Assembly (NCBI GenBank): GCA_018884025.1
Contig: JAHLFB010000139.1
Location: forward strand, 1 to 41,409
DNA: 41,409 nucleotides
Reading direction: 5' to 3'
DNA from: Candidatus Phocaeicola faecipullorum
GTDB taxonomy: Bacteria > Bacteroidota > Bacteroidia > Bacteroidales > Bacteroidaceae
The stretch's first letter is position 1; each line of letters begins with the position of its first letter. Under the pieces are notes generated by a model that saw only the letters and a list, made by a program, of their open reading frames with translations, did no database searches and was not told the origin of the DNA. The translations under genes were made by a program, and so were the position numbers. Below are positions 10,217 to 24,330 of the stretch, piece by piece.

Positions 10217-10283
10217 CAAATGTATGAAGAAGTAAAACAAAGATTTATAACAAATGTTTCATACAAAATAAAAAATGTTTCAT
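10217..10283 (-). promoter_or_regulatory. Predicted HTCS operator and promoter of unit B
   Basis: Direct repeats AATGTTTCAT at 10253-10262 and 10274-10283 are exactly 21 bp apart, two helical turns, as expected for an AraC-type dimer. On the minus strand TACATTTG (plus 10217-10224) fits the -7 box TAnnTTTG. The proximal repeat begins 36 bp from that box and no canonical -33 element is properly spaced, which fits an activator-dependent promoter. The same sequence and spacing occur upstream of susC at 24264-24330. Regulation by the HTCS at 156-2915 is inference. Confidence 0.78.
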
Positions 10284-10315
10284 GCAACATTTGTATATGT
10301 ACATGAAACATTTTT
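10271..10315 (-). terminator. Inverted repeat, probable terminator of unit A overlapping the unit B operator
   Basis: A 14-bp arm at 10271-10284 is perfectly complementary to 10302-10315, with a 17-nt loop. In the minus-strand transcript leaving fructokinase 2 it is followed by U6-A-U4, a plausible intrinsic terminator although the stem is AT-rich. Its left arm contains the distal AATGTTTCAT operator repeat, and its right arm is a third, inverted copy of that box (10303-10312). Confidence 0.6.
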
Positions 10316-10383
10316 AGGAAGATACTAATCTTTCAAATTTTAAGACATAAAACCCTATTAAACAATAAAATGCTCTTAACTTC

Positions 10384-11262
10384 TTAGTCCAGATATACAT
10401 CTGGCAGTACAGGCATTGCACCATTCTGTGTACATACGTATGCTGACACTTTTACAGCAAGCTCATGAGCCTCACGTACTGACTTTCCTTTAAGAATGGA
10501 AGCTACAAATGTAGCGGTAAAGGAATCACCTGCCCCTACTGTGTCGGCTACGACTACTTTCGGTGTCTCTACAAATGAAACACTGCCCGGAGTAAATACA
10601 TAACTGCCGTTCACTCCACAAGTAAGTATCAGCATCTTCAAGTTATATTTTGCAAGGAGGATCCAGCATTTGTCCTGAAGGTCAATACCGGGATATCCGA
10701 ACATACGGCTCACTGTAACGAGCTCTTCATCATTTATCTTAAGTATATTACACTTACTGAATGAATGGCAAAGGATTTCCTTGGTATAAAAGCCCTGACG
10801 AAGGTTGATATCGAATATCTTCAATATTTCATCTCCTTCGGGCATAGCGTCAAGGAAACGGTTGATTGTCTCACGAGACACGACACTACGTTGCGCCAAA
10901 GAGCCGAAACATACCGCACGCGTATGGCGAGCCAAATCTTCAAGAGCTGGAGTAAAAGGTACATTATCCCATGCAACGCCTTCCTTTATGTCATAACAGG
11001 GAACACCTTCGGCATCAAGCTCCACCTGAACGGTTCCTGTAGGATAAGGTACTGTCTCTACTATTCCGAAAAGTTTCTTTTCACGGAAGTTTTCAAGTAT
11101 TTCGGTGCCAAGTTTGTCATCGCCTACGGCACTTACTACACGGCTGTTAAGACCGAACTGTGATATATGGTATGCAAAGTTTGCAGGGGCACCACCCAAT
11201 TTCTTTCCTTCAGGAAGCACATCCCATAGTGCTTCACCCATTCCTACTACTAAATCATTCAT
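10384..11262 (-). CDS. Fructokinase 2 (PfkB family)
   Basis: A 292-residue PfkB kinase, last gene of unit A. It keeps GGAPANFAYH and DTVGAGDSFTA with catalytic Asp246, and should convert imported fructose to a fructose phosphate. It starts 6 bp after the permease 2 stop, the compact arrangement expected of the ancestral operon. It is about 95% identical to fructokinase 1: the last 120 residues are the same except for one Glu/Asp change near the C-terminus, while many silent differences run throughout. That pattern indicates an old duplication kept under purifying selection rather than a recent copy. Confidence 0.92.
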   Translation of the reverse strand: MNDLVVGMGEALWDVLPEGKKLGGAPANFAYHISQFGLNSRVVSAVGDDKLGTEILENFREKKLFGIVETVPYPTGTVQVELDAEGVPCYDIKEGVAWDNVPFTPALEDLARHTRAVCFGSLAQRSVVSRETINRFLDAMPEGDEILKIFDINLRQGFYTKEILCHSFSKCNILKINDEELVTVSRMFGYPGIDLQDKCWILLAKYNLKMLILTCGVNGSYVFTPGSVSFVETPKVVVADTVGAGDSFTATFVASILKGKSVREAHELAVKVSAYVCTQNGAMPVLPDVYLD

Positions 11263-24000: not shown

Positions 24001-24213
24001 GGAAGCAACATTCAATGTAAATTTACCGTCAAAATCAGTAATAGTACCGTTGGTATTATTACCATTCTCCACTACAGTTGCTCCAATTACAGGGAAATTA
24101 TCAACGGCAGAAATGACCGTTCCCTGAACCACCAAATCTTGCGCATGCACAACTATGCATATAGATAAGAATAACGCAAGAAAGAATTTTCTTCTTATGC
24201 TTTTCATACGCAT
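21100..24213 (-). CDS. SusC-family TonB-dependent fructan importer
   Basis: A 1037-residue outer-membrane transporter. After the signal peptide (about 1-24) comes a carboxypeptidase-like regulatory domain (about 27-100), a TonB-box-like [11 protein letters not shown] near 105, the plug domain ([64 protein letters not shown]) and a 22-strand barrel ending [10 protein letters not shown]. It moves oligosaccharides from the endo-GH32 into the periplasm using TonB. It is the first gene of unit A, with an operator-like direct repeat about 90-120 bp upstream. ATG 24207, two codons in, is an equally good start. Confidence 0.95.
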   Translation of the reverse strand: [1037 protein letters not shown]

Positions 24214-24263
24214 TAAATTAAAAAAAATGAGTTGATTAAAAAAATTAATTTATCAAAGTGTTA

Positions 24264-24330
24264 CAAATGTAAAGCGTGAATTATATAACAAATATAACGA
24301 ATGTTTCATACACAATAACAAATGTTTCAT
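24264..24330 (-). promoter_or_regulatory. Predicted HTCS operator and promoter of unit A (susC)
   Basis: Direct repeats AATGTTTCAT at 24300-24309 and 24321-24330 are 21 bp apart. The minus-strand -7 box TACATTTG lies at plus 24264-24271, exactly 36 bp from the proximal repeat. The 40 bp starting at the first repeat match the unit B site at 36 of 40 positions, while the spacer between repeat and -7 box is far less alike. This points to selection on protein-binding sites. The inferred transcript start is about 24257, giving a leader of roughly 45 nt. Confidence 0.78.

Follow-up and report, generated by a model that had tools for sequence, protein, structure and literature searches.

A mirrored four-half-site element as the probable operator of a BT1754-type fructan regulator in Candidatus Phocaeicola faecipullorum

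The closest described relative of the system considered here is HTCS_Fru, the hybrid two-component system (HTCS) BT1754, whose regulon was reconstructed by Ravcheev et al. in 2013, and in the main text of the same paper direct repeats, on average 21 bp apart, are described for the 16 HTCSs with reconstructed regulons (PMC3878776). Activation has been published for BT1754 and the Bacteroides thetaiotaomicron susC promoter, and a 300-bp reporter of the BT1763 promoter responds to levan and fructose through BT1754 (passages of PMC9845299); fructose binding and activation of linked fructan genes are likewise published for BT1754. Binding of DNA by HTCSs is known from chromatin immunoprecipitation with sequencing (ChIP-seq; passages of PMC3404733). 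Here we describe two elements in a contig of Candidatus Phocaeicola faecipullorum (GCA_018884025.1, JAHLFB010000139.1), the whole 41,409 nucleotides of which are referred to as the window. Both are probably activator sites, each a four-half-site array for a fructose sensor-regulator of the BT1754/HTCS_Fru type. The window is contig C85 of a draft genome of 3.82 Mb that is 86% complete.

The locus resembles HTCS_Fru in its COG1879-like sugar sensor, in a regulon with an inner-membrane transporter and a kinase and in a direct repeat at 21 bp (main text of PMC3878776), and, as in HTCS direct-repeat operators, its two sites lie about 21 bp apart and are conserved before orthologous operons. It departs from the HTCS_Fru text, which gives two direct-repeat sites, in that most of the sites here add a mirror-image pair, a distinction drawn against the main text. 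An earlier note on this DNA had proposed a fructan regulon under a BT1754-type HTCS; its prediction of the binding site is partly supported, but the regulon and the two-box idea are not new, because they were predicted in 2013 (PMC3878776). In the main text of that paper the words 'inverted' and 'tetramer' are absent, 'palindrom' occurs three times (twice for the Crp motif and once for a motif-search step) and BT1763, BT1757 and BT1765 are not mentioned; no description of a mirror-image HTCS operator was found in the literature searched by passages, figures and supplements excluded, and PMC10994844 and PMC12125979 contain nothing of use on HTCS sites. The four-half-site dyad with its fixed spacings is the new part, unless the figures or supplement of the 2013 paper already show it.

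Among AraC-family activators of Escherichia coli, AraC, RhaS and MelR use tandem or inverted half-sites of about 17-21 bp, read by two-helix domains, with the proximal site near the core promoter. These are soluble, one-component proteins, whereas the regulator here is membrane-tethered and its array is symmetric with one promoter. HTCS operators generally, for example those of BT4124 at bt4114 and BT4663 at bt4662, also combine REC and AraC-type output with promoters of susCD homologues (passages of PMC11253607).

Operator and promoter elements in the window

The two elements lie in front of two gene runs on the minus strand, which are taken as operons: A, starting with susC, and B, starting with a gene for a 784-aa protein. 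Half-sites are numbered from distal to promoter-proximal.

10217-10224, minus strand: operon B promoter, -7 box TACATTTG, at exactly 28 bp from half-site 4
10253-10262, minus strand: operator B half-site 4 (promoter-proximal), ATGAAACATT
10274-10283, minus strand: operator B half-site 3, ATGAAACATT
10282-10291, plus strand: operator B half-site 2, ATGCAACATT, one mismatch, central AT in common with half-site 3
10303-10312, plus strand: operator B half-site 1 (distal), a perfect box ATGAAACATT
24264-24271, minus strand: operon A (susC) promoter, -7 box TACATTTG
24300-24309, minus strand: operator A half-site 4, ATGAAACATT
24321-24330, minus strand: operator A half-site 3, ATGAAACATT
24329-24338, plus strand: operator A half-site 2, degenerate, ATGTATCATT
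24350-24359, plus strand: operator A half-site 1, degenerate, AAGAAACAAT

The earlier note had reported AATGTTTCAT on the plus strand at 10253 and 10274 and at 24300 and 24321, 21 bp apart within each pair, with 36 bp between the low ends of each pair and of CAAATGTA (10217-10224 and 24264-24271), and all of these values are correct at both promoters. Read on the coding (minus) strand, both have ATGAAACATT-N11-ATGAAACATT-N28-TACATTTG. The reported agreement of the 40-bp operator regions at 36 of 40 positions is also right (by block, 29/31 in the repeat pair and 8/8 in the -7 box), and the stretch between operator and -7 box is indeed poorly conserved, with matches at 11/28 positions.

Half of the operator had been missed. 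Upstream of the first pair at operon B, and on the opposite strand, lies a second 21-bp pair (10282-10312) with one mismatch in 20; it is offset by 29 bp from the forward pair, and the inner boxes have their central AT in common. The full element, 10253-10312, is AATGTTTCAT-N11-AATGTTTCATGCAACATT-N11-ATGAAACATT, that is, four half-sites with two-fold symmetry. The direct repeat that the note took for the operator is real, at 21 bp, but is one half of a four-half-site dyad. At the susC operator the counterpart of the reverse pair (24329-24359) is degenerate, with 4 mismatches in 20, and agrees with 10282-10312 at 20/31 positions, and the proposal of two identical operators holds for the promoter-facing boxes and not for the whole element.

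The window has 24 boxes with at most one mismatch, where 6.75 would be expected. No exact box pair arose in 200 simulated 41,409-base sequences of AT-rich intergenic composition, which between them held 25 pairs with at most three mismatches, and in the draft genome the exact pair at a spacing of 20 to 22 is found at these two places only. The -7 element of sigma-ABfr, with the consensus TAnnTTTG (passages of PMC7366714), is present at both window promoters, and in a column table of aligned sites no conserved TTTG is seen at about -33, in the stretch that separates operator and -7 box. A divergent promoter on the far side of the window operators was considered and rejected, TAnnTTTG being absent within 90 bp there.

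Conservation of the dyad among relatives

Conservation was followed in the neighbourhoods of HTCS relatives, 79 named loci in all, taken from the best 80 of at least 572 matches. Pairs at spacing 21 with at most three mismatches number 39 in these loci, as against none for the reversed motif and 0-5 at eight other spacings. Two boxes followed by the -7 box, at up to 5/24 mismatches, match 58 times in the window and loci together, a figure that counts redundant species and register shifts, and not at all in the reversed control. The non-redundant set comprises 36 sites, two of them from the window, after a register-shifted duplicate (position 10304) was dropped from 37. With a dyad called when the reverse-strand pair matches at least 14/18 positions, 26 of the 36 sites pass, 21 of them at an offset of 29 bp and 5 at 30 bp, whereas at other offsets 9 of 2124 trials do so. 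The architecture is conserved and its spacing rigid. Two positions not used in site selection are kept as well: from distal to proximal half-site, T13 is found in 85%, 96%, 96% and 100% of the 26 dyads and A17 in 73%, 81%, 58% and 69%, which points to a single kind of two-helix domain as the reader of all four half-sites. The length of a half-site fits one two-helix AraC-type domain.

A weight matrix made from the four half-sites and the -7 box gives 234 positions scoring at least 18, including training sites, overlaps and redundant loci, and none in reversed sequence. A site with a -7 box is present in 39 of the 79 loci, 42 sites in all, some of which trained the matrix. The next gene encodes a homologue of the 784-aa protein in 22 cases, SusC in 13, a GH32 enzyme in 5 and an MFS transporter in 2. 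The repeat pair therefore stands before fructan-gene homologues at all 42 scored sites, and the non-conservation that had been set beforehand as grounds for refuting the prediction was not what we found; the 42/42 figure is descriptive, because the loci are HTCS neighbourhoods, where such genes are common. In genomes G249, G293, G080 and G062, of the window's genus, the 784-aa gene has a weaker dyad at offset 30 with the -7 box at 28 bp.

A strict four-box pattern of 34 positions, excluding the -7 box and allowing at most three mismatches, was then run over 301 genomes of the family. It finds 17 dyads in 10 genomes, with none in the reversed control, and all 10 belong to the 66 genomes with a BT1754-type HTCS, called at E 1e-200 or better. 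Among these 301 genomes the strict form is restricted to genomes that have such a regulator. For 15 of the 17 dyads, the distance between TAnnTTTG and an outer half-site is exactly 28 bp; of the other two, L288 has its -7 box at 29 bp and L282 has none within 90 bp. Within 90 bp the element occurs on one side only in 14 dyads, on both sides in two (L278 and L279, where the other side has it at 26 bp) and on neither in one. On the -7 side, 15 of the 17 have a gene homologous to that of SusC, the 784-aa protein or GH32 (52 to 100% identical), the exceptions being L282, where the only long neighbour was unmatched, and L289, at a contig edge.

The main rival to an array of four half-sites holds that the operator is the promoter-facing direct repeat alone, bound by one HTCS dimer as has been suggested for HTCSs at large, and that the mirror pair has little function and is left over from an ancestral divergent promoter. 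We regard this as unlikely, and it does have evidence of its own. For HTCS motifs the 2013 paper gives direct repeats of 21 bp on average (PMC3878776, main text), the upstream pair has decayed in operator A of the window, and the mean matches of 9 rise from distal to proximal half-site (6.9, 7.4, 7.6, 7.8), although the two proximal half-sites were used for selection, so that these means favour them. In G163 and G135, which belong to another genus, there are two pairs between divergent susC and GH32 genes, each facing its own gene; the one offset measured there, at L179 in G163, is 51 bp as read from the sequence, that is, 30 plus 21. Against a relic stand the 14 of 17 strict dyads in which the mirror pair is kept though TAnnTTTG lies on one side only, an argument to be read with the fact that the strict pattern itself requires the mirror pair, and the retention in that pair of the second-element positions T13 and A17, which no pattern required.

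Besides the divergent layout of G163 and G135, which is nearly repeated in the sequence of G121, several findings weigh against the four-half-site array. The inner half-sites overlap by 2 bp, and simultaneous occupancy is therefore uncertain. No reverse pair passes the dyad threshold at 10 of the 36 sites. By the matrix, only 39 of the 79 loci have a scored site, and of the 47 named loci whose first gene is testable 35 have the site and 12 do not, several of the latter having visibly diverged half-sites together with a recognition helix of the R(S/T)QFYRK type. The 17 strict dyads, moreover, include close relatives, and several of the 10 genomes are near that of the window.

A further reading concerns the centre of the dyad, where ATGTT...AACAT resembles the published motif wwwTATGTTnTAnAACATAwww of the Crp-like regulator BT4338/Cur (PMC3878776), so that the central inverted repeat might be a Cur site overlapping the HTCS direct repeat. 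The core is the same, but the gap is 4 bp in Cur and 6 or 7 bp here: ATGTT-N4-AACAT with at most one mismatch is found in 0 of the 36 promoters, the N6 form in 18 and the N7 form in 5. The Cur motif, at up to three mismatches, is absent at both operators and occurs in the window at chance level (6 against 4.5 expected), and a Cur site would leave the outer half-sites unexplained. It was rejected on gap length, and we consider it exceedingly improbable.

Specificity of the pattern and the likely reader

The two-box form had been proposed, together with the -7 box, as a search pattern for fructan operons. Its 28-bp spacing stands, as the strict dyads indicate, but as a specific marker the pattern had to be rejected: at up to three mismatches it matches in 85 of the 301 genomes (reversed control, 4), by hand count 38 of the 66 with a BT1754-type HTCS and 47 of the 235 others. 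It is unspecific because a direct repeat of similar sequence, equally far from a -7 box, also turns up at genes other than fructan genes and in genomes lacking this HTCS. At 20 two-box sites before genes not of the window type (L150, L156-L158 and L162-L177, out of 30 loci; L148, L152, L153, L160 and L161 were unscored there), both reverse half-sites have a positive score in none. L148 has a matrix score of 38 and three good half-sites, without a -7 box.

The sites of L162-L177, many of them ATGTAACAT or ATGCAACAT and with the -7 box at 28 bp, precede genes other than window-type fructan genes, several of them in genus g14, and probably serve as operators for other regulators whose promoters have this geometry. 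L149 and L151 have a GH32 gene whose two-box site lacks a mirror pair and stands 28 bp from the -7 box, and nearly the same site recurs in G149 (C13, position 4302) on a contig other than that of its HTCS. These three are candidate distant members of the regulon, reminiscent of the unlinked exo-levanase BT3082 (passages of PMC9845299).

As a control we took 22 susC promoters from stretches with other HTCS-type genes in genomes G000, G163 and G249, after excluding 19 without a TAnnTTTG match and 2 with a match inside a gene. The control is noisy, since the -7 candidate was picked by its best direct repeat, which inflates the direct-repeat score, and a few candidates look to be in coding sequence. 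Whereas 20 fructan sites have one symmetry centre in common, no common centre was found among the 22, and in this sample the dyad is therefore not a general HTCS feature. The shuffled 95% symmetry level is exceeded by 4/22 control promoters and 29/36 fructan sites, and the similarity of forward and reverse boxes averages 12.8 of 40 in the former and 27.5 in the latter.

As the earlier note had it, the window encodes one HTCS.

93-2915, plus strand: HTCS regulator gene, with Peripla_BP_4, HisKA, HATPase_c, REC and AraC-type HTH domains (Pfam)

A periplasmic sugar-binding sensor, HisKA, HATPase, REC and AraC-type HTH thus stand in one chain, as in BT1754/HTCS_Fru. The sensor matches the solved structure 2x7x_A (E 1.8e-116), which we take to be the BT1754 sensor, and the REC and DNA-binding domains match 12aw_A, a hybrid two-component protein (E 4.5e-56). 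By HTCS protein the closest named relatives, among the best matches listed, are uncultured Phocaeicola and Bacteroides caecigallinarum assemblies. This protein, a BT1754/HTCS_Fru relative, is the likely reader of the sites; among the testable loci the site is present in 29/31 with an RVQLYRK recognition helix and in 6/16 with other helices (Fisher p 7e-5), an association that is confounded by phylogeny and to that extent counts against our reading.

That the sites belong instead to a different regulator encoded in the genome, an HTCS or one of AraC type, is, in our view, very unlikely. There are 14 further HTCS-like places in the genome, with at least 200 bits to the window HTCS, and two-box sites with the same -7 spacing are also seen beside non-fructan genes and in genomes that lack the HTCS. 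Strict dyads, by contrast, are confined to genomes with a BT1754-type HTCS, of the 66 two-box sites in HTCS genomes 29, spread over 24 genomes, are no more than 30 kb from the HTCS gene, and both the recognition-helix association and data from a BT1754 deletion in B. thetaiotaomicron (passages of PMC9845299) point to the linked regulator.

The gene runs and a proposed mode of activation

The two operons read as follows.

21100-24213, minus strand: operon A, first gene, SusC
19314-21050, minus strand: operon A, SusD
17906-19357, minus strand: operon A, DUF4960 protein
16318-17892, minus strand: operon A, BT1760-like GH32
14255-16183 and 12425-14221, minus strand: operon A, two further GH32
11269-12423, minus strand: operon A, MFS transporter
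10384-11262, minus strand: operon A, PfkB kinase
7836-10190, minus strand: operon B, first gene, 784-aa predicted outer-membrane beta-barrel, conserved in fructan loci
5871-7739, minus strand: operon B, GH32
4702-5865, minus strand: operon B, MFS transporter
3704-4582, minus strand: operon B, PfkB kinase

From their order and strand, the genes from 24213 to 10384 would form a single operon; operon B spans 10190 to 3704, in the order 784-aa protein, GH32, MFS and PfkB. Searches of Pfam, NCBIfam and PDB sequences gave no match for the 784-aa protein, which is 61-96% identical to 15 aligned homologues from fructan loci. Its fold model (mean pLDDT 48.7) is a beta-barrel most like TonB-dependent receptors, a low-confidence lead only because the model is poor. 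Compared between operons, the MFS and PfkB proteins (10384-12423 and 3704-5865) are 94-95% identical and are therefore probably recent duplicates, while the GH32 proteins beside them are 44% identical. A search of plasmid records with susC gave no match.

The 3' end of a group II intron occupies positions 1-130 on the plus strand (RF00029 at 54-130, 56.8 bits), adjoining the HTCS gene. As 93 falls within the intron end, ATG 144, read from the sequence, is probably the true start of the HTCS. By eye, homology to loci L003 and L004 picks up again at about 131, so the intron seems to lie in the 5' leader, downstream of the promoter and ahead of the start codon. The same intron sequence recurs at three further genomic places, a repetition that would account for the contig ending at this point. 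On the minus strand at 2922-3499, in the gap that separates operon B from the HTCS gene, lies a likely type II toxin-antitoxin pair with a YoeB-like toxin, whose partner has a ParD match only, below the cut-off.

The elements described above suggest how the two operons may be activated. Each operator offers four half-sites of consensus ATGNAACATTTNTNNNA, two in tandem, 21 bp apart, toward the promoter and two mirrored upstream, their heads meeting at the common AT. Periplasmic fructose would activate the sensor, upon which its C-terminal DNA-binding domains would bind the array, with two head-to-head sensor dimers, or a tetramer, as the most likely form. The proximal half-site, ending 28 bp before TAnnTTTG, appears placed to contact RNA polymerase, and the domain bound there might stand in for a weak -33 element. 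Both operons would then be switched on together. Binding by the HTCS, occupancy of all four half-sites by two dimers and the activating effect are here deduced from sequence.

It is possible, and we put it forward tentatively, that the monosaccharide-sensing HTCS meets DNA in a manner unlike other HTCSs, with two membrane-held dimers acting as a dimer of dimers on four half-sites arranged in two-fold symmetry. If so, the symmetry of the sensor dimer would be matched by that of the DNA, with the offset fixed at 29 or 30 bp and, in the divergent lineage, at 51 bp, and two fructose-bound sensors would have to cluster to fire one promoter. How activated HTCSs find their DNA targets despite their membrane localization was named an important topic for future work by the authors of the ChIP-seq study (passages of PMC3404733). 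The four-part operator with its fixed spacings gives an exact DNA for footprinting, for structural studies and for the engineering of promoters, and makes a search for the fructan regulon sharper than the two-box repeat allows, in what is a main class of diet sensors in gut Bacteroides.

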